Shown here: positions 5,948 through 16,250 of the stretch, piece after piece | Numbering within the stretch: position 1 is the first letter of the stretch | Layout of the letters: each line of letters starts with the position of its first letter | Virus record (IMG/VR): IMGVR_UViG_3300032092_000315 | Span: 1 to 20,924 of that record | Strand: one strand, 5' to 3' | Length of the DNA stretch: 20,924 bases | Source of the DNA: a virus | Translations under genes and position numbers: made by a program | Notes under the pieces: model-generated | Databases searched by the model: none | What the model was told of the DNA's origin: nothing | What the model saw: the letters and a program-made list of their open reading frames with translations, nothing else

Positions 5948-8900
5948 ATGGCTATAAATGTCCCTCTTAACGCACAGCTTCAAAACGCTACCCAGTTACA
6001 ACAGCAAATTCAAAATGCTGTTAACTCTGTTAGAATTAATTTGGGTGGCCAAAATGGCGCAAGAGCATTAAGCTCTCTTTCTCAACCTCTTGGTCGTTTA
6101 ACTGGTCAAGCAGACGAGTTCACAAAGTCTCTTGACGCTGCAAATGCTCGCGTTCTTGCTTTCGGCGCTTCTGTTGGCGTTGTTAATGCAGTGACTAGCG
6201 CTTTCAAAAGTCTTGTTAGCTCCACAATTGAAGTGGAGAAGGCTATTACTGCAATCTCTATTGTTGGTGATAAATTCACTGGTAAAACAAAAGAACTTGG
6301 TCAAGGTCTTTTTAAAATTGCAAAAGAGACTGGTCAAAGCTTTAGCGAAGTTTCTAAAGCTGCTCTAGAATTTTCTCGACAAGGCTTGCTGTTAGAGGAC
6401 ACTTTAAGCAGAACTCAAGACGCTCTTGTTCTTACTCGTTTGACTGGTCTAGATGCTGCGAAATCAGTTGACGGTTTGACTGCTGCTTTTAATGCTTTCT
6501 CAAAAGCTGGATTATCAACTACTCAGATCGTTAATAAACTAGCCGCTGTTGACCAAGCGTTTGCTGTGTCTTCTGCTGATTTGATTGAAGGCTTTAATCG
6601 AAGCGCTGCTGTTGCGCAAAACGCTGGAGTAACATTTGATGAGCTTGCTGGCATTATTACCGCTCTCCAACAAGAAACTTCTCGCGGTGGCGCAGTTATT
6701 GGTAACGCCCTTAAAACTATTTTTACTCGTTTGCAAGATACTAGCACTCTTAATAACTTGCAAAATCTTGGCGTTGCAGTGCAAGACTTACAGGGAAATA
6801 TTCTGCCTGCTAGACAAATTTTACAAAATCTCGCTACTGATGTTGAAGGATTAGGTCAGATTACTAAAGCTGGCATTTTTAAAGACGTAGCTGGCACTTT
6901 CCAAATTAACCAATTAATTTCTCTCGTTGGAGACTTAAATAAAGAAAACAGCATAGCTGCTAAAGCCACACTAGAATCTGCTGGTGCCACAAATCAAGCT
7001 TATGTTGCTAATGAAAAATTAAATCAATCGCTTGATGCTATTCTTAATAAGGTTGCTAATACTGGTAAGCAATTAGGAAGCATATTAGGAGAATTAGGAT
7101 TAACTGATAATCTTAAAGGTCTTTTAGATGGAATTAATTCTTTCTTAGAGGGCGCGAGCAGCCTCTTGCAAGGAGACGATCTTGGCTCTAATTTTGCCAA
7201 GGGTTTTGTTAAAGGTATTGGTGCTGTGTTAAGCGGTCCTGGTCTTGGAATTTTCTTGGCGATTATTGGTAAGCTGTCTCTTGATTTAGCTAAATTTGGC
7301 GCTCAAAGCTTAAAAGCATTTTTTGGTATTGGAAAAGCTGCTGCTGATCAAAAACAAGTACAAGAATCCATTGTTCAAACTTTGTTAAAAAATCAAAGTG
7401 TTTTAAGTACTATTTTAAATACTCAGGGTGGACAAAATGCACAAGCGTTAAAATTCTTAGGGCTTTTGAATCAACAGGCCGCTGCCATGCAATCTATTCA
7501 GAGTTTAGCTGGTGGTATTGCTTCAACAGTTTATGCTGGAGGGTTTCGCGCAACTGCTGGAGGTTTGCAGCGTAAAGCTGCTGGTGGATACTTGCCAGCG
7601 CAAGAAGCGTCAGATGTTCGTCGTGGCGTAGGCGGAGCTTCGCCGAGTTCTAAAGTTGTTTCTATTCCAAACTTTGCGTTTGGTGGCGGCAAACGCGGCA
7701 CAATGATTGCCAACACAAGCGAGTATATTGTTCCTAATTATGCTGGCGGTGGTTCTGCCATCTTTAATCAAGACATGGTGAAGAGCATGGGCTTACCAGC
7801 GGGAGCAAAGAAGATTTCTGCGGCTGGTGGGTTTGTGCCTAATTTTGCAGATCAAATTAAAGATGTCAGTAATAAATATGCACTTATTGTTAATGAGGCA
7901 ATAGGTACGCAACCTATTATTGCTTCACATAAATCTAAAGACGGTGACCGTATTGATTACAAAGCTAATGCTTACGGTATTGATTTAAGTAAATTAAAAA
8001 ATCCAACCGCTTATAGTAAAAAATTCTCTCAAGAAGCATTGGTTAAAAAATATCAAAATTTTGCACAGAGAGACGCTGCGAGATTTGCTGACACTGCTAT
8101 TGGGCGACCAATATCCCCAGTTTCGGTTCAAAAATTAGCTAATGCTGGATCAATACCAAGTTTAGTTGGAACTATTTTTGAGAGCGCGATTGAATCCATT
8201 ATTCAAGACCCTGAATATTTAAATGCTTTTAAATCGGGTGGACAAAACGCTCTTTTTGATTTTGTTAACGCTGGTGAAGTTAATGATTTTTTTGGAATTC
8301 CTAGGGGCGTAAAATATGTTGAAGCAAAATATCGAGCGTCTGGTGACGCTTTAAAAAGTTTTGGTAGTAAAATTTATAAAGAAGAAGTGTTTGGAGCTTC
8401 TACGGCTGGAGTTGCGAGACAAAAGTTTTTATCTGGAAAACCCTTAGTCATAAGACAAAGTAATTTTGCTAATCAATTGCAAAGAGTTAGTGGAAAAAAT
8501 TTCCAAGCCAATAATTTAACTTCTGATCAAATTTCTTTATTAAAGAAAGCTGGCGGAATATTGACTTCTAGTTCTGCTTCTGGCTATGTTCCAAACTTTG
8601 CCGCCGCAGCTTTGCAGCAAGCTATTGCTCGCGAAAAAAGCGCTGGCCTTTCAGATTCACAAATTTATGTTGACCAAAATTCATCATTAAAATCATCCAT
8701 GAACCCAATGGGGTTAATGGTGGCCAATCGAAGAGATGAGCCTGCTGGCGGTTTCCAAGGCATCGCTCGCGCACGCAAGGAAGGCATGAATCCAAAACTT
8801 TATGGTGCGGCAAATGGATTTGTGCCGAATTATGTTAGCGGTACTGGAATTGCGCAAAGCTATGGTCTTCAACAAGCTCAACCATCAAGTGATAAAATAA

Positions 8901-11900
8901 ATAAAAGTTTTGCCGATACTGCTGGTAAAATTTTCCTATTACAAAGCGCTTTATCATTTTTACAAGGTGCCGTTGGAGACACAGAAAACTCTTTTGCAAA
9001 AGTAACTAATACACTTGTAAGTGCAGGTGGCAATATAACTTCTTTAGCTTTATTAGGAAAAGAAATTCAAGGAATCAAAATTGATGGAACTGGTTTAGCT
9101 GCTGGTTTCGGAAAATTTGCAAAAGGTTTAGGTATTGCTGGCGTGGCTTTTGGAGTTGTTACTGAAGGTTTTAAATTTGCTAATTTTGCTATTAAAGAAT
9201 TTTCGGGAGAGAATGCAAAAGCTGCATTAGCAACTGCTAAACTCGCAGACGCTTCTGATAAATTATCAATCAAATTTGATTCATTGTCGAAAACAAGACA
9301 AACTGAAATCTCAACTCAGGCGGAACAAATTCTTGGATCGGCTGGTTATGAAGGATTTTTTAACGGGATTGCAAACTTTTTTAGAGAACAAAAAATTGGT
9401 GGTGGAGATATTGGTAGTGATCCAGCAGTGAAACAAGGCGTTGCTCAATTATTAGCTTTGGGAGCTTCGAAACAAGAAGTGCAAGGAGTTCTTGAAAGCG
9501 GACGAAAATTTAAAGAAGAAAAGGTCTATACTGCTGGCTTTAGCGCGGGTAATCAAAGTCAAACATCTTATATACGCACAACGGATGTAACACAAAAATC
9601 AGATATTACTGCTGGCATAGAAAGCTCCATGACTAGCGGCTTGGGTAAAGAGTTAAGTGATAAGTTTCTTAAATTTTCTTCCGAAATAGAAAATATAGAT
9701 TTTAATGCTGACTCAGCAAAAGTCCAAGAAGCAATTAAAAAAATTCAAACCGCAATTTATGGTACAGGCGAAATTTCTCCAGAATTGGCTAAAACAATTG
9801 AGGGAGAAACGAAAAAACAAGAACAAGATTTTAAAATCAAAGCCGCCAAACAAGCTATTGAATTCAATAAACCTATTAATGTTTTAAAACGATCCCTAGA
9901 AAAAATTATTTCAGATGGAGGGCTAGTTGTTGAAAATGTAGCCAGAGAACTAGAGCGTCAATCAAAATTAATAAGTGCAATTTCTTCTAGTAAAAGTTTT
10001 GCTTCTCTATCGGATAGTTCGAAACTTGTTTTTGAAATTGATTCTTCATCTAGACAGTTAGCAAAAGAATTAGAAAATAGAGTAGCTAAATTTGGCAACG
10101 ATACACAAGCTGATTTGTTAAAATTTGTTCCAGAATTGGGACTGAGCAAAAAAGTAGGCACATCTTTAACTAAATCATTTAAAAATTTAGGACAAGTAAA
10201 AACAGAAGAAGATGTAAAGACTAATTTAAATTCTTTTAATGAAGCTGTAAAAAAAGCAGGACAAACTGTTGATAAAACTAAGTTTGCTGAGTTGACAAGA
10301 AAAATTACAGAAGTTAATAATAGTTTTGGAAATTTACAAAAAGAAATTGAAGTAGAAAAAGCTGTTTTAGCTTTAAATAATTCAGAAAAATTATTGGAAG
10401 CCCGCGCTTATGATACTTATAAAAGTAAATTAGCTGGATTTGTTGAAGAAATAATCAAGGGGCAAACAAGTCTAATTCAAATGCGCGGCGATCTTGACAG
10501 AATTGACATTAAAAAACAGGGAGATATTGAAATCGCAACAGCTAACGCTCGTTCTAGCAGAGAAGCAATGCTATTGCGTCAAGATATTGAGTCGAAAGCA
10601 TTTCAAAAAAAGCAACCAACAGAACAAAAAATACTATTGCAGGAAAAAGAATTGGCCGCTAAAAGAGAATTCTTTACAAAAGACAACATTGCTGGATTAA
10701 ATAGAAACACTGAAGCTCTTAATAATTTAACGAGGCTTTTGGCGTCTGATTTTATTAATAAAATTGATGAATCAATAAAGTTTGTTCAAGACATGCGAGC
10801 CTCTTCGGGTCCAAGTCCGTTTGGAGGTGGACCAGTACCTTTAACCACGGGCATCACACTACCATCAGGAATAAAAGATTCACAAGATGCCGTAAATTAT
10901 CTCCAAAATTTAAAAGGCGTTTATTCTTCTTCTGCAAATCTTCCAATGGCAAGTTCTGGTGGTAATTTACAAACTGCTAATTCATATTTAGAACGAATTG
11001 GAAATAGCGTTACTAAAGGATTGACTTTCGCACAGATTCAAGATGAAATTGGGAAATTTGGCGTTACGCCAGAAATGCAGGACAGATTTACCGAATACGC
11101 CCAACAATTATTACTAGCTTATAAAGAGTCATCTGAGGTTTTTAATGATAAATTAAACACACTAAAAGCTCAGCAGGAAACCGAAAAAGACATATTTGAT
11201 TTGCAGAATAGTTATGCTATAAAATTAAAAGCCCAAATTAGAGCATTAAACGATTCGCTGACTGATCCTCAAACCGCTGGAGAATATGCTTCCAAACTAA
11301 GACAAAGAGCAAGAGATGCTACAGAAGTAGGTAAAGGATCGGATGCTGAAAGACGAGCTTATCGTTCATCTTTTGGATATGGATTAGATCAAGGACTTGA
11401 AGAGTTGGAGAAAAGAACTTTAGACTATAAGCAAGAATTAGGAGTGGAGATTCCACGTTTGTTCTCTTCTAATCTTGCTCAAGGACTAAACGATGCAATC
11501 AGTGGCGCGAAAGACCTTAAAACAGCGCTCACTGATGCTGCCACAAGTTTCTTCCAAGAAATCTCACGCAAGAACATCTCTAACCTTGCTGACATGGTTA
11601 CTGGCGGCACTGGTAATTTCATACAATCTTTATTTAAGCCAAGCATTCCTAAAGCTTTACCTGTCAATGAATTAGCTTCTGGTGGCTTCATTAAAGGCGG
11701 TTCTGGCACCAAGGACGACGTTCCAGCAATGCTCATGGGCGGCGAATATGTTATGAAAAAATCCGCCGTAAATAAATACGGCAAAGGATTCCTAGACGCT
11801 CTCAATAACGGCAAAATGCGCGGCTACGCCACTGGCGGTTTAGTTGACCCAGAAACATTCCCAACACAAACTGGCCGCAGTGGATTCTTCACTCCTGGCG

Positions 11901-13165
11901 ACTATGGTCAAGGAGCAATCACTGGCAAAAATGAACTTCTCACTTTTGCAACCCAAAGCTTTACTGGTGGTCAATATGACTACATGGGCGGCTTTGGAAT
12001 GAGTGGTGCAAGCGTTGGCTTGGAGCCAGAAAGCGCTCGACTCTCTTCTTTCGGCAGAGAGAACAGCCCAATGTTTGAAAGAGTTCAGCAGTCAAAAGAT
12101 GAGGCTTTTGGAGTTTATCTACAAGGATTACAAAAAGAAAAAGAATATTCTCAATTATTGGATCAAATTGCCAAAGATAAAAAAGCTCGTAAAAAACAAT
12201 TACAAATGGCAATCATTTCAGCAGTTGCATCTACTGCTCTTAATTTTGCTGGTAGCGCCATGTTGTCTGGAGCAAAAAATGGTATTGCTGCTGGTGCAAA
12301 AACCGCTGCCGCTAGTGGAAAAACCTTTGGCTTTGGAGCAAAATTCATGGCTGGAGCAAAAGGTATGTTCACTGGTGCAGGTGGTCAAGGTGGATTAGCT
12401 AATATTTTTAAAGGAACAGGAACTCAGCTTTCTGATTTAGCTATCGCTAGGCAAAATGCAATGAGTGGGAATATAGCAAGCCAGTCAGTTCAAGGAGCAA
12501 TGTCATCTCCACAAATGGGAAATCAACCAGGGTTAACACTGCCGATGACCGCCACAGACTCCATGAATTTAGAAGATAACATTAAGTTATTTAAAAAATA
12601 CAATTTTTCAAGTCTTGTCAAAAGTTTGTCCAATCAAAGTTCAGGCCCGAAAGCTCAGGGCGGCGGCTTCAACAATCCTCTTCTACCGCAAATGACACCA
12701 GAGATAATGAAACAAATGGGATTGCGTGATTTTGGATCAGATGGTAATTATAATCCATATATAAAACGCGCTTCTGGCGGTTTAATTTCTGGCGGCTCTG
12801 GAACCAAAGACGACATTCCAGCAATGCTTACTGGTGGCGAATTCGTCTTGAATAATCGCGCCACTCAACGCCTTGGTGTTCAAAACCTTAATAAGTTAAA
12901 CAACGGTCAATCAGTTGGCAGCGAAGGCTCTTCTGCTGAAATGACTCAAGCTTTAATTTCCAAACTTGACGAACTGATTCAAACAACTTCAAACTCTTCT
13001 CAGAGCAATGTGGTTGTTAATGTTTCATCCACTGATCAACAGGAAGAAAACCCTGCGGACATGAATGAAAGAGATAGAGAGCTTCAAAAGAAAATCCGCC
13101 AAGCTGTGCTAGATGTTATCGCTCAAGAAAAAAGACTAGGAGGATCGCTTGAAAAATCACGATGA
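5948..13165 (+). CDS. Tail tape measure protein with embedded nuclease-like segment (2405 aa)
   Basis: Sets tail length and is ejected ahead of the DNA. Residues about 115-330 are a TP901-type tape measure core (TGQSFSEVSKAALEF, LTRLTGLDAAKSVDGL, AVSSADLIEGFNRSA, QQETSRGGAVIGNALKTIF). Hydrophobic stretches lie near 419-443, 995-1060 and 2085-2105. Residues 540-965 are Gly-rich with PNF(A)-type motifs at 573-577, 595-599, 630-634, 881-885 and 959-963. Between 634 and 881 is a segment with a PD-(D/E)XK-like signature (E745, D771, E792-x-K794). Residues about 1290-1760 are helical and coiled-coil-like. GGSGTKDD(V/I)PAML motifs occur at about 1917 and 2282, flanking the last hydrophobic part. AAGGA at 5936-5940 supports the ATG; the stop overlaps the next start in ATGA. 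At roughly 0.15 nm per residue the upper length estimate is about 360 nm, less if the inserted segment does not stretch. Confidence 0.95.
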   Translation: MAINVPLNAQLQNATQLQQQIQNAVNSVRINLGGQNGARALSSLSQPLGRLTGQADEFTKSLDAANARVLAFGASVGVVNAVTSAFKSLVSSTIEVEKAITAISIVGDKFTGKTKELGQGLFKIAKETGQSFSEVSKAALEFSRQGLLLEDTLSRTQDALVLTRLTGLDAAKSVDGLTAAFNAFSKAGLSTTQIVNKLAAVDQAFAVSSADLIEGFNRSAAVAQNAGVTFDELAGIITALQQETSRGGAVIGNALKTIFTRLQDTSTLNNLQNLGVAVQDLQGNILPARQILQNLATDVEGLGQITKAGIFKDVAGTFQINQLISLVGDLNKENSIAAKATLESAGATNQAYVANEKLNQSLDAILNKVANTGKQLGSILGELGLTDNLKGLLDGINSFLEGASSLLQGDDLGSNFAKGFVKGIGAVLSGPGLGIFLAIIGKLSLDLAKFGAQSLKAFFGIGKAAADQKQVQESIVQTLLKNQSVLSTILNTQGGQNAQALKFLGLLNQQAAAMQSIQSLAGGIASTVYAGGFRATAGGLQRKAAGGYLPAQEASDVRRGVGGASPSSKVVSIPNFAFGGGKRGTMIANTSEYIVPNYAGGGSAIFNQDMVKSMGLPAGAKKISAAGGFVPNFADQIKDVSNKYALIVNEAIGTQPIIASHKSKDGDRIDYKANAYGIDLSKLKNPTAYSKKFSQEALVKKYQNFAQRDAARFADTAIGRPISPVSVQKLANAGSIPSLVGTIFESAIESIIQDPEYLNAFKSGGQNALFDFVNAGEVNDFFGIPRGVKYVEAKYRASGDALKSFGSKIYKEEVFGASTAGVARQKFLSGKPLVIRQSNFANQLQRVSGKNFQANNLTSDQISLLKKAGGILTSSSASGYVPNFAAAALQQAIAREKSAGLSDSQIYVDQNSSLKSSMNPMGLMVANRRDEPAGGFQGIARARKEGMNPKLYGAANGFVPNYVSGTGIAQSYGLQQAQPSSDKINKSFADTAGKIFLLQSALSFLQGAVGDTENSFAKVTNTLVSAGGNITSLALLGKEIQGIKIDGTGLAAGFGKFAKGLGIAGVAFGVVTEGFKFANFAIKEFSGENAKAALATAKLADASDKLSIKFDSLSKTRQTEISTQAEQILGSAGYEGFFNGIANFFREQKIGGGDIGSDPAVKQGVAQLLALGASKQEVQGVLESGRKFKEEKVYTAGFSAGNQSQTSYIRTTDVTQKSDITAGIESSMTSGLGKELSDKFLKFSSEIENIDFNADSAKVQEAIKKIQTAIYGTGEISPELAKTIEGETKKQEQDFKIKAAKQAIEFNKPINVLKRSLEKIISDGGLVVENVARELERQSKLISAISSSKSFASLSDSSKLVFEIDSSSRQLAKELENRVAKFGNDTQADLLKFVPELGLSKKVGTSLTKSFKNLGQVKTEEDVKTNLNSFNEAVKKAGQTVDKTKFAELTRKITEVNNSFGNLQKEIEVEKAVLALNNSEKLLEARAYDTYKSKLAGFVEEIIKGQTSLIQMRGDLDRIDIKKQGDIEIATANARSSREAMLLRQDIESKAFQKKQPTEQKILLQEKELAAKREFFTKDNIAGLNRNTEALNNLTRLLASDFINKIDESIKFVQDMRASSGPSPFGGGPVPLTTGITLPSGIKDSQDAVNYLQNLKGVYSSSANLPMASSGGNLQTANSYLERIGNSVTKGLTFAQIQDEIGKFGVTPEMQDRFTEYAQQLLLAYKESSEVFNDKLNTLKAQQETEKDIFDLQNSYAIKLKAQIRALNDSLTDPQTAGEYASKLRQRARDATEVGKGSDAERRAYRSSFGYGLDQGLEELEKRTLDYKQELGVEIPRLFSSNLAQGLNDAISGAKDLKTALTDAATSFFQEISRKNISNLADMVTGGTGNFIQSLFKPSIPKALPVNELASGGFIKGGSGTKDDVPAMLMGGEYVMKKSAVNKYGKGFLDALNNGKMRGYATGGLVDPETFPTQTGRSGFFTPGDYGQGAITGKNELLTFATQSFTGGQYDYMGGFGMSGASVGLEPESARLSSFGRENSPMFERVQQSKDEAFGVYLQGLQKEKEYSQLLDQIAKDKKARKKQLQMAIISAVASTALNFAGSAMLSGAKNGIAAGAKTAAASGKTFGFGAKFMAGAKGMFTGAGGQGGLANIFKGTGTQLSDLAIARQNAMSGNIASQSVQGAMSSPQMGNQPGLTLPMTATDSMNLEDNIKLFKKYNFSSLVKSLSNQSSGPKAQGGGFNNPLLPQMTPEIMKQMGLRDFGSDGNYNPYIKRASGGLISGGSGTKDDIPAMLTGGEFVLNNRATQRLGVQNLNKLNNGQSVGSEGSSAEMTQALISKLDELIQTTSNSSQSNVVVNVSSTDQQEENPADMNERDRELQKKIRQAVLDVIAQEKRLGGSLEKSR
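7661..8836 (+). repeat. PNF(A/V)-type motif array in the tape measure
   Basis: Five copies of (I/V)-P-N-(F/Y)-(A/V) at codons starting 7664 (IPNFA), 7730 (VPNYA), 7835 (VPNFA), 8588 (VPNFA) and 8822 (VPNYV), most preceded by a small residue, Gly and an aromatic (GGF, SGY, NGF). They separate unlike segments: a 20- and 35-residue Gly-rich spacer, the 246-residue nuclease-like domain, and a 73-residue module. The even motif but unrelated spacers suggest domain boundaries or processing sites. Confidence 0.7.
7850..8587 (+). other. Embedded PD-(D/E)XK nuclease-like domain in the tape measure
   Basis: Codes for tape measure residues 635-880, lying between two VPNFA motifs. The visible signature is VGTIFESAIESII with E745 in a helix, ALFDFVN with D771, and KYVEAKYRAS with E792 and K794, spaced 21 residues from D771 to E792. 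Helix-E, strand-D, strand-ExK is the order of the restriction-endonuclease-like core. The segment is soluble and globular in composition, unlike the neighbouring Gly-rich and coiled-coil parts. Nuclease activity, metal binding and target are inferred; a degenerate or purely structural copy is possible. Confidence 0.55.
11681..12856 (+). repeat. Two GGSGTKDD motif copies in the tape measure C-terminal region
   Basis: Copy one at 11681-11758 (residues 1912-1937) and copy two at 12776-12853 (residues 2277-2302) share SGG(F/L)I then GGSGTKDD(V/I)PAML and GGE(Y/F)V, followed by a basic helix and LNNG. Similar GGE(Y/F)V motifs are common near the ends of tape measure proteins. The 365 residues between them include the hydrophobic Ala/Gly-rich segment 2085-2140. 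Confidence 0.75.
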
Positions 13166-13965
13166 GCATAGACCGATCACTTTCAGTTCAACCATACGAT
13201 CAAGTTTTTGTTGTTAATGGCTATCAGCTTTCTGGAGTTGAAAGCATCAGTATTAATTACAGTGTCCCATTAGAAAATTCTTTAACACTAGGATCAACTT
13301 ATGGCTATAATCTCAACAATCCAATCCAAGCCGAAATATCTTTACAGCGCAGCATGTTGTACCAAGACCCGCTTTTGGCTTTTACTGGCGACTCTAGTTT
13401 TTCTGGCAGTTTAAGTTATAACGGAAAATCTTATGGATTTACAAGCGGCTTCTTGAATCAATATGGTATTTCCTGCACAGTTGGCGAGATTCCTTCAATC
13501 TCTTGCAGCATCACTGTTTATGGAAAATTAGAACCATCGCTAGAAGTTTTAAAAACACAAGAGCATCCAAGTCTTTTTATTCCTAGCCCACGGTCAATGA
13601 CTATTTCTGGGAATAACACTGCCAACAATCGCGTAAAAAGTTTTTCTTTCGAGTATTCAATTAATCGCCAAGGAATTTATTCTCTTGATAGCGCAAAAGA
13701 GGTTGATGAGGTGGTATTTTTGCCGCCAGTTAACGTCTCTGCTTCGCTCACTTTTGATGCTTCTAATATGACTTTAGAAAACCACGAATTCTTTTTAACT
13801 AGCGCAGAACAAAAACAATTTGATATTTCAGTCAAAAACAGAGATAATAATAGTGAAATGATTCATTTAACTATTCCTAATATTCAGGAAATTTCTCAGC
13901 AGCTTTCCTCAAGCTCTGATAGTTCACTAAGTATTGTTAACAATTATATAGGATATTTATCATGA
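13162..13965 (+). CDS. Tube-like distal tail protein, two tandem domains (267 aa)
   Basis: All-beta protein built like the major tube protein but more compact. Half one (about 20-125) runs VESISINYSVPLENSLTLGS, NPIQAEISLQRSM, then YGISCTVGEIPSISCSITVY; half two (about 156-267) runs VKSFSFEYSINRQGIYSLDS, PPVNVSASLTFDAS, KQFDISVKNRD and a final strand. The phrase VGEIPSISCSITV mirrors VGDLPTVSVSVEG of the minus-strand tube protein. The gene starts in ATGA overlap with the tape measure stop, the usual slot of a distal tail or tube-adaptor protein. I infer that it forms the ring joining the tube to the tail tip. There is no membrane span or signal peptide. An AGGAGG at 13138-13143 is rather far upstream to be the sole ribosome site. 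Confidence 0.65.
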   Translation: MSIDRSLSVQPYDQVFVVNGYQLSGVESISINYSVPLENSLTLGSTYGYNLNNPIQAEISLQRSMLYQDPLLAFTGDSSFSGSLSYNGKSYGFTSGFLNQYGISCTVGEIPSISCSITVYGKLEPSLEVLKTQEHPSLFIPSPRSMTISGNNTANNRVKSFSFEYSINRQGIYSLDSAKEVDEVVFLPPVNVSASLTFDASNMTLENHEFFLTSAEQKQFDISVKNRDNNSEMIHLTIPNIQEISQQLSSSSDSSLSIVNNYIGYLS

Positions 13966-16250
13966 CCTCAACTAATTATGAGATTAATCCAATATATTTT
14001 TACAACAGGGATAGAAATATAACTGGCGCTGCTCTATTAAATTCTTTTGAGTTTAATCCCAACTACGGTTCATCAATCAACTTTGTTTGCAAAACAAACA
14101 AGTATATGTATAACAATAATACATACGCGATGATTCCAATCACGCTGAATAATGTTGTTGCTGAATGTGATTTTAATTTTACTGTGAACGAAAACAATGC
14201 ACAGCAAATTATCAATTTCTTTGAAAGCCAAAGTGGAACAGGCGCTTTTGCAATTAATGATTCTTCTCAAATATATAGACCCTTAACTGGATTTGCCGAT
14301 AATTTTAACATTCAGATGCTGCAAAATAATTTGTATGGCATCAATTTAAAATTTTCAGTTGAAAGAAATTCTTCGTTCTTGAATTGGAGCGGCATGTCGT
14401 TTTTGAATTATGATTTTGTTCCTTGGCAAACTGGACAGTTTTATAAAAAATATCAACCAGTATATTTTGAGATTCAATCAGAAAGCCAATTTGATAATTT
14501 CTTTTATGCTAAAGAAGACCATTTGAGCGCAGTCAATAATTCTCCAGTAGATGAAACTATCTGGACTCAAGAATTCTTTTACGAAAATGAATTGGGACTA
14601 CCTGTTGACACCAAGCCAAAAATTACAAAAAATGAATTCAAAAACTCTTTTGCTCAAAGAATCAAAGACAATCAAAACATTCATTCAATAGAATCTTTAA
14701 CGCTAGAGTATAAAAATATATCTGATTTTCAACTCAAGTCAATGCTTCATTTTATTGAAAACAAACTTGGGTATAGAAAATTTGTTTTTAATTTGCCGAA
14801 AATTTACAATCGTCCGAAAATATTCTATGCAGAGAGTTGGTCGCATTCTTGGAATTACGAAGACTCTAATAATTTTAGAGTCACGCTTGTTGAAGACCCT
14901 CTTGGTCTTAAAAAAATCAGCGACTCTCCAATGTTGATTTTGTCTCAGTCACGCTCTTCAAGCAATTTTTCCATGCAGTTAGCCCCACAAAATGAAATTT
15001 GTGTAGTTTCATCATCAGGAGAAAACTTGCTCTCTACTGGTGATCCAATTAATGTTAATTGGTCAGGTTGGCCGTTAAGAAACATTAAGGTTTATCGTCC
15101 AGTATCCAATTTAGATTGTCAAGATCAAAACTTGTCAAATGTTTATTTTGCTAGAACAAGCAAGATTAATCAAATAAATGTGAGCTACAACTATATCACT
15201 GATATTAGTTTTAATGGTGCAAGAAATATTAGCAGTCTTGATGCTGGTCATAATTTGCTGACCGAGTTTAATTGTAGTGGGACGACTGGTTTGCAGAATC
15301 TTAACCTAGAAGCTAATCTACTAACCAAAATCAATATAGATAATTGCCCTTTTATAACAGGCTTAAATTTAAGATCAAATAACATTAATCAATCTGATTT
15401 TACTCAAGCTTTAGAAGCGCTAGCTTTTGGCTCTGGGCGGTCTGGACTGATTGCGATAGATAGTGATATTAATTTTGCCGTAGTAAATCCAACGCCGCAA
15501 TCTGGCATTGATTATAAATATATTGCCTCGATTGATTATCGCAATTGGACGCAGCTTTATAAAAATTTACAACTTCCAATTGTTCCGACAGGTTATATCA
15601 ACACTGCGGTTTTCCCAATCTGGCTAAGCAATTCGTTTAGCGGTTTAACTGGAGCTGGCTCTAACGGTTTTTGGAATTCTTCATTTAATAATTATTCAGT
15701 TGTACAAAATAATTCTCCTTTTGATTCTACTTGGGTCAAGAAACAAGACTATGAAATAGCAGCAAGGCCAACCTACTCATTCAATAACTCTATCATGACT
15801 GGTAGCGGAATCAATAACACTGGAGACTATTTATCAGCTTTTGTAGTTGCAAAATTTAACAATACTGGCAATCAGTGTTTGATTAACTTTTCGCCAAATA
15901 AAGATTATGGATTGTTCTATAGCGGCGGAACCGTTTCATTTAGAGATGGTGCAAGCGTTAGTGTTTTAACAAGCAATGTCGCAGTGAATGAATATCATTC
16001 TATTGGCTTTATTCGCAACTCAACTCATTTTACTGGTTATTTAAATGGCGTAGTTGGTAATTCTGGAACTCTTGCTGTTAGCAATTTGAATTCAATCAAA
16101 CTCTCTGTTGGTGCAGCAGAAGGTTCAGCACCAAAATATTTTGGGGGCAACTTGGGTGAAGTTTTAGTGTTCTCCAACAACGCACCTTTCAATTTAAACA
16201 CTGGTTTTCACAAACCTTTTAACGCTAGATTTGGAATATTTATGCCATGA
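13962..16250 (+). CDS. gpM-like distal tail protein fused to LRR and lectin-like domains (762 aa)
   Basis: Residues about 26-146 and 214-315 are two copies of a lambda gpM-like domain (minor tail protein family). The second is clearest: a KNEFKNSFAQRIKDN hairpin, IESLTLEYKN, SMLHFIENKLGYRKFVF, NRPKIFYAESWSHSW and NFRVTLVED follow the gpM strand order. Between them, residues 155-207 hold a small carbohydrate-binding-type module (W155, KKYQPVYF, FFYAKEDHLS, W201). Residues 372-487 are about four leucine-rich repeats of 21-23 residues (INQINVSYNYITDISFN, LNLEANLLTKINIDNC). Residues about 570-756 resemble a LamG/concanavalin-like lectin (FVVAKFNNTGNQCLINF, VNEYHSIGFIRN, GYLNGVVG, GNLGEVLVFSN). 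Both neighbours overlap in ATGA. It likely sits at the tail tip, with the C-terminal domains pointing outward to bind host surface sugars or proteins. Confidence 0.75.
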   Translation: MTSTNYEINPIYFYNRDRNITGAALLNSFEFNPNYGSSINFVCKTNKYMYNNNTYAMIPITLNNVVAECDFNFTVNENNAQQIINFFESQSGTGAFAINDSSQIYRPLTGFADNFNIQMLQNNLYGINLKFSVERNSSFLNWSGMSFLNYDFVPWQTGQFYKKYQPVYFEIQSESQFDNFFYAKEDHLSAVNNSPVDETIWTQEFFYENELGLPVDTKPKITKNEFKNSFAQRIKDNQNIHSIESLTLEYKNISDFQLKSMLHFIENKLGYRKFVFNLPKIYNRPKIFYAESWSHSWNYEDSNNFRVTLVEDPLGLKKISDSPMLILSQSRSSSNFSMQLAPQNEICVVSSSGENLLSTGDPINVNWSGWPLRNIKVYRPVSNLDCQDQNLSNVYFARTSKINQINVSYNYITDISFNGARNISSLDAGHNLLTEFNCSGTTGLQNLNLEANLLTKINIDNCPFITGLNLRSNNINQSDFTQALEALAFGSGRSGLIAIDSDINFAVVNPTPQSGIDYKYIASIDYRNWTQLYKNLQLPIVPTGYINTAVFPIWLSNSFSGLTGAGSNGFWNSSFNNYSVVQNNSPFDSTWVKKQDYEIAARPTYSFNNSIMTGSGINNTGDYLSAFVVAKFNNTGNQCLINFSPNKDYGLFYSGGTVSFRDGASVSVLTSNVAVNEYHSIGFIRNSTHFTGYLNGVVGNSGTLAVSNLNSIKLSVGAAEGSAPKYFGGNLGEVLVFSNNAPFNLNTGFHKPFNARFGIFMP

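Follow-up and report, generated by a model that had tools for sequence, protein, structure and literature searches.

The window analyzed here, a 20,924-base stretch from an IMG/VR virus record, codes for a tape measure protein (TMP) of 2405 aa, which matches PF10145 (PhageMin_Tail; residues 125–316, E 1.8e-27) and several PHROG tape measure families (down to 2.7e-51). The genes around it include those for tail tube-like and minor-tail-like proteins. The protein coded after the TMP and a tube-like gene (window 13962–16250) has a minor-tail domain as well as weak matches of leucine-rich-repeat and lectin-like type, and may be a candidate receptor-binding protein. Within the TMP, residues 635–880 (window 7850–8587, plus strand) coincide with a swappable cassette flanked by GFVPNFA and GYVPNFA separators; it is the one enzyme cassette of this TMP. 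The layout of the gene is as follows, with L002 and L003 denoting two relatives:

5948..13165, plus strand: TMP gene, 2405 aa (open reading frame; PF10145 PhageMin_Tail; PHROG tape measure families)
7190..7297, plus strand: glycine-rich hydrophobic stretch, residues 415–450, upstream of the cargo slot (Kyte–Doolittle)
7829..7849, plus strand: separator 1, GFVPNFA, residues 628–634 (sequence; identity to L002/L003 stops at 7846/7848)
7850..8581, plus strand: putative PD-(D/E)XK-like nuclease cassette, residues 635–878 (motifs, alignment, pattern test, dN/dS, model)
8582..8602, plus strand: separator 2, GYVPNFA, residues 879–885 (sequence; identity to L002/L003 is back at 8576/8577)
8600..8758, plus strand: conserved 53-aa module after the cargo, residues 885–937, ...NPMGLMVANRRDEPAG... 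(alignment A2)
8816..8836, plus strand: separator 3, GFVPNYV, residues 957–963 (sequence)

The glycine-rich stretch is a candidate membrane-inserting segment: its Kyte–Doolittle peak of 1.85 falls at residues 423–441, and a comparable position was found in 7/7 relatives inspected.

Separators, cassettes and the conserved module

A search with the TMP N-terminus recovered 29 related loci. The relatives that are complete in this region carry G[FY][VI]PN[FY] separators past residue ~600, with differing sequence between them. Across the phage group the cassette boundary takes the consensus form G[FY][VI]PN[FY]A; a flanking A-A/S-G and a trailing A were observed across 301 distinct separator contexts, in which the P and N are fixed and the G is favored by the search pattern itself. 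In the stretch that runs from the first separator to the module, these TMPs hold up to six cassettes (>100 aa). The PD-(D/E)XK-like type is the commonest in the relatives, and the rest are P-loop or other enzyme-like versions. The 53-aa module, which comes after the last cassette, has 15 invariant columns in alignment A2 and the consensus PLxxAIxRExxAGLxxxQIRVxQDGKLxxSxNPxGLAVxNTRDEPxG.

Scanning IMG/VR with this module returned 271 viral stretches, and 80 of these module-bearing relatives were retrieved for analysis. The module is also present in four metagenome-assembled contigs (Flavobacteriaceae, Verrucomicrobiales and Halobacteriovorax), which are too few and too uncertain for us to name a host. 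Neither the nuclease cassette nor a related P-loop cassette was found in any annotated phage of INPHARED, and the conserved module was not found there either. Likewise, viral contigs scanned with the window segment alone gave no match, and genome contigs scanned with the nuclease subgroup gave no stand-alone relatives. Two variant layouts were also seen. In L080–L083, an 893-aa open reading frame starts near the conserved module, as though the TMP had been split into two genes. In the distant TMPs L073, L079 and L087, the module lies near residue 570 with no cassette ahead of it; thus, cargo-free forms may exist.

Catalytic motifs and predicted structure of the cassette

The first-pass annotation had placed E745, D771 and E792-x-K794 inside TMP residues 635–880 and read them as the core of a PD-(D/E)XK nuclease-like domain. 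The residues are present at these positions, and the cassette displays four motifs:

8168..8182, plus strand: motif I, GTIFE (G741, F744, E745), invariant in alignment A1; helix 101–117 of the model
8258..8260, plus strand: motif II, D771 (LFDFV), invariant; just before a short strand, model residues 138–139
8321..8329, plus strand: motif III, E792-A-K794 (VEAKY), K invariant and E/D at 792; model strand 156–160
8357..8371, plus strand: motif IV-like S804 and K808, at least 90% conserved; helix 165–181, after motif III

Alignment A1 comprises 23 divergent cassettes that are 13–44% identical to that of the window. Only five of its columns are invariant, namely G741, F744, E745, D771 and K794, while F782, S804 and K808 are almost so; position 792 is occupied by E in 16 sequences and D in 7. 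A set of 68 held-out TMPs was searched using a profile with the six motif columns masked. This recovered 23 domains, all of which (23/23) possess the D and [ED]xK residues, with GxxFE at motif I in 18/23. The deviants at motif I are L035, with Q for E745; L108, with Y for the F; and L103 and L106, with L for the F; the L102 domain is truncated short of motif I.

The combined pattern GxxFE..D..[ED]xK was found in 72 of the 164 bounded cassettes. By comparison, the same pattern had a mean of 0.66 and a maximum of 3 occurrences over 200 shuffles, and was found in 0 of 589 non-cassette pieces of 250 aa from the same TMPs. At least 70 of the 82 TMPs possess one or more cassettes with this pattern; this is a lower bound, as several of the 12 misses are those of the regular expression (motif II reads RADFPL in L003 and L005). 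Because of the invariance in A1 and the enrichment of the pattern over both shuffles and other TMP pieces, the motif set lies beyond chance, and the residue signature is strong. Further, the dN/dS values of the nuclease-like cassettes (mostly 0.1–0.35; 0.47 for the window and L004, a distant, near-saturated pair) indicate that purifying selection acts on the cassette. Relatives retain the acidic residues and the lysine; their loss would have spoken against the earlier reading.

An AlphaFold2 model of the segment, built from a 23-row alignment, had a mean pLDDT of 80, with values of about 90 or more across much of residues 1–180. The predicted fold is mixed α/β, as opposed to the helical or non-sheet fold that would have undermined the first-pass annotation. 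In the model, E745 is in helix 101–117, D771 is just ahead of a short strand, E792 and K794 are on strand 156–160, and helix 165–181 with S804 and K808 comes after the motif III strand. This predicted order, helix(E)-strand(D)-strand(ExK)-helix, agrees with that of the motifs in the PD-(D/E)XK superfamily. The D...(D/E)xK configuration of motifs II and III that typifies the superfamily is found throughout A1 and in all 23 held-out domains, and the acidic residue of motif I in the first core helix corresponds to E745 in helix 101–117, with a Q in one homolog outside A1. The E is modeled on a helix and the ExK on a strand, but core strand 1, which the superfamily would have after the motif I helix and before the motif II strand, is not predicted.

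A comparable arrangement is known from Hjc, whose motif positions are E9, D33, E46 and K48 (PMC1913061). As in the PD-(D/E)XK/Hjc enzymes (PMC1913061), the segment has an acidic residue in the first helix, a D that precedes a strand or lies on it, (D/E)xK on the strand after that and polar residues in the subsequent helix; the spacing in the segment is E-26-D-21-E, as against E9, D33, E46 and K48 in Hjc. Unlike known members of the superfamily, it displays no detectable sequence family or fold match, and the model joins motifs I and II by a helical region and has a β-meander N-terminal to the core.

Searches for a known family were negative. The window segment had no match in Pfam, PHROGs, PADLOC or PDB sequences. 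Foldseek searches with the model found no convincing match in the PDB (best E 0.089) and none among the viral folds of BFVD, and VIA-align returned no row above Z 4.0; rows for Rab, septin and dynein in the fold searches were weak and were set aside. The hhalign comparison of the segment with UPF0102 and Mrr_cat carries no weight, since its positive control, UPF0102 against Mrr_cat, gave no match either. The nuclease reading is well backed by the sequence evidence (invariance of the catalytic set, the masked profile and purifying selection), but finds no counterpart among solved or viral folds. We accordingly describe the segment as PD-(D/E)XK-like by residue signature, with membership of the fold only putative.

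This lack of a positive family match, whether from fold searches or sequence libraries, would suit a domain that is catalytically dead, with only its fold retained in a structural or DNA-binding capacity. However, the conserved columns constitute a catalytic set rather than a core or surface set, residue 792 is only ever E or D, and the pattern is retained in the held-out divergent cassettes, leaving this explanation a very slim chance of being correct. An active version would be expected to function as a metal-dependent nuclease.

Cassette exchange and other occupants of the slot

Comparison with close relatives revealed abrupt replacement of the cassette. The window DNA is 94.6% identical to that of L002 and L003 from base 3 to 7846/7848, shows no similarity to them within the cassette, and matches them again from 8576/8577. 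Similarly, the identity of L038 to L040 is 99.6% across 3.9 kb ending two bases beyond separator 1; the two have no common cassette, and they regain their likeness three bases ahead of the final separator that precedes the module. We also considered 27 TMP pairs with 90–99% identity over the 400 aa preceding the first cassette. In this band, 9/27 pairs have no cassette in common (the L038/L040 pair, whose identity rounds to 100%, is counted among the 9), and 16/27 have an unmatched cassette. Closely related phages thus exchange whole cassettes, we propose by recombination at the separators. At the sequence level, a combination known from polymorphic toxins, a conserved delivery region with exchangeable unrelated cassettes, is present in these TMPs, and the exchangeable cassettes lend weight to the earlier suggestion that the tape measure has a built-in cargo.

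The records of L038 and L040 around the TMP are colinear and mostly 93–99% identical despite their unlike cassettes. Identity is also interrupted at a few more TMP sites and in short flanking stretches upstream and downstream. Since the flanks are colinear though the cassettes differ, no adjacent immunity-like gene tracks the cassette: none varying with it was found next to the TMP in the comparisons of the window with L002/L003 and of L038 with L040, though one may lie farther away. The TMP downstream of the cassette is mosaic as well; hence, the cassette is the sharpest variable part of the protein rather than the sole one.

Breakpoints at the cassette edges would also suit a selfish homing-type nuclease, lodged in frame within the TMP gene and itself driving the exchange, and there is precedent both for nuclease genes at phage exchange boundaries and for TMP genes interrupted by homing nucleases (PMC10448857). 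We consider this quite improbable: the reading frame is continuous through the cassette, which ends at separators, no intron or intein signs were seen, other cassettes are devoid of the nuclease pattern, and the slot is always filled in close relatives, with no empty alleles.

Several further cassette types occupy the slot. Additional families that cannot be aligned by BLAST with the first show, on inspection by eye, the E-D-ExK spacing (L065 1027–1188 and L045 965–1225, in protein residues). P-loop cassettes, with a Walker A motif APAGAGKST followed by DILSGA, are found in L004 (11482–11991), as the first cassettes of L012 and L015–L017, and in L002 (12419–13594); in many relatives they adjoin the nuclease cassette, and at times both occur in one cassette. 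Clear motifs are confined to the nuclease-like and P-loop cassettes, and the remaining labels are leads.

Among these leads, the cassettes of L046, L055, L058, L067 and L071 (alignment A6) share GSGxxxxFxxLG...VGVKKF...DLHGSNY...IDPG and are kinase-like by motif; an AlphaFold model of this type was discarded (pLDDT 50). Cassettes in L051 (1219–1554), L049 (984–1480) and L076 (1391–1621; all in protein residues) show further enzyme-like motifs: zincin-like (TLFHEASH), HAD-like (YDWDGT), nucleotidyltransferase-like (LAYGAFSPSTKGH) and ADP-ribosyltransferase-like (LYRGQ...SFSTS). Sequence searches for the kinase-, HAD-, ADP-ribosyltransferase- and nucleotidyltransferase-like cassettes gave no firm match, and these labels are therefore kept as motif-level leads. 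A short cassette in L003 (13082–13414) opens with an EF-hand-like calcium motif (DLDGDGIVTQEDG).

The variety of occupants bears on whether a real, virion-borne nuclease might serve the phage's own DNA, be it in packaging, head-tail completion, DNA passage or end processing. T4-type gp4, a virion-associated nuclease with a restriction endonuclease fold (PMC7824862), is a precedent for such a role, and a domain that is near-universal in these TMPs suits a step required in each infection. Against this, near-identical phages have non-homologous nuclease cassettes in the same slot, which also houses cassettes devoid of the nuclease pattern. Turnover of this kind is not what a fixed function in packaging predicts, and we regard this role as unlikely.

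Proposed delivery and relationship to known systems

We consider it fairly probable that the segment represents a PD-(D/E)XK-type nuclease that occupies a TMP cargo slot, is exchanged at the separators, is delivered at infection and cuts nucleic acid. The cargo slot would be the region after the glycine-rich hydrophobic segment, between the separators and before the 53-aa module, and recombination at the separators would trade entire cassettes among closely related phages. At infection, the TMP would exit the tail ahead of or together with the DNA, and the nuclease part would cross with it and fold or be released inside the cell, presumably becoming active only after delivery. The hydrophobic segment before the slot would suit membrane passage. 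Once inside, the nuclease would most likely cut the host chromosome or competing DNA. The turnover of cassettes among near-identical phages argues for diversification driven by conflict, and the near-universal presence of the nuclease-like cassette argues that a nuclease cargo is useful in most infections; other enzyme-like signatures in the slot, such as the Walker A P-loop, are as expected of a payload. Counting against this reading are the negative family and fold searches, the missing core strand, the lack of an immunity-like gene beside the TMP that varies with the cassette, and the Q of L035. The sequences show the catalytic residue set, its conservation, the cassette layout and the exchange, whereas metal-dependent nuclease activity, delivery, activation after delivery and the target are inferred.

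Siphophage TMPs leave the tail during infection. This exit is discussed in the accessible text of PMC11126660, which presents Tme, a TMP-related endonuclease effector of the contractile injection system of Streptomyces davawensis. As described there, Tme resembles the arrangement proposed for the segment in having a nuclease domain fused to a tape-measure-like protein and a proposed release from a tail-like machine. In contrast to the segment, the Tme nuclease is EndA-like (DRGH/H-N-N) and C-terminal, its machine is a contractile injection system and not a phage that carries DNA, and that text reports no cassette exchange (PMC11126660). Glycine zippers are reported to be common to TMPs and the T6SS DNase effector Tde1 (PMC10240207).

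The TMP of mycobacteriophage TM4 (PMC1796659) has, as proposed here, an embedded enzymatic domain used at infection, but its motifs are those of a peptidoglycan hydrolase directed at the cell wall, whereas the signature here is nuclease-like. These TMPs would be comparable to the polyvalent proteins of phages and conjugative elements (Iyer et al. 2017, PMC5512222), which are large, combine several unlike enzymatic domains and are proposed to enter the host with the DNA. The two differ in that the carrier here is a TMP, which that paper does not mention, and in that the domains are split by a fixed short motif and exchanged singly. Polymorphic toxin systems share the conserved delivery part, the swapping of unrelated enzyme cassettes at a fixed junction and the frequent use of nucleases; unlike them, the cassettes here are internal rather than C-terminal and, in the comparisons made, no neighboring immunity gene varies with the cassette. 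Published precedents exist for enzymatic domains in TMPs (TM4), for TMP-related nuclease effectors (Tme) and for multidomain proteins that are injected (polyvalent proteins). In the open-access literature searched, we found no PD-(D/E)XK domain in phage TMPs and no VPNFA separators or separator-bounded exchange.

A broader proposition, whose chances we regard as evenly balanced, is that the TMPs of this uncultivated phage group, which is widespread, act as polymorphic carriers of effectors, with a bay of rapidly exchanged enzymes, mostly DNases but also kinase-like and other types, delivered to disable the host or competitors. If so, many tailed phages would have in their largest tail protein at once a ruler, a channel and a loading dock for early-infection enzymes, and the separator motifs would make it simple to list unstudied phage effectors by sequence, in their hundreds. 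Phage tails would also be linked to the effectors of contractile injection systems, such as Tme, and a testable question would arise, namely how an internal nuclease spares the phage's own DNA during assembly. The structural ruler of the tail would then double as a diversifying device for effector delivery.
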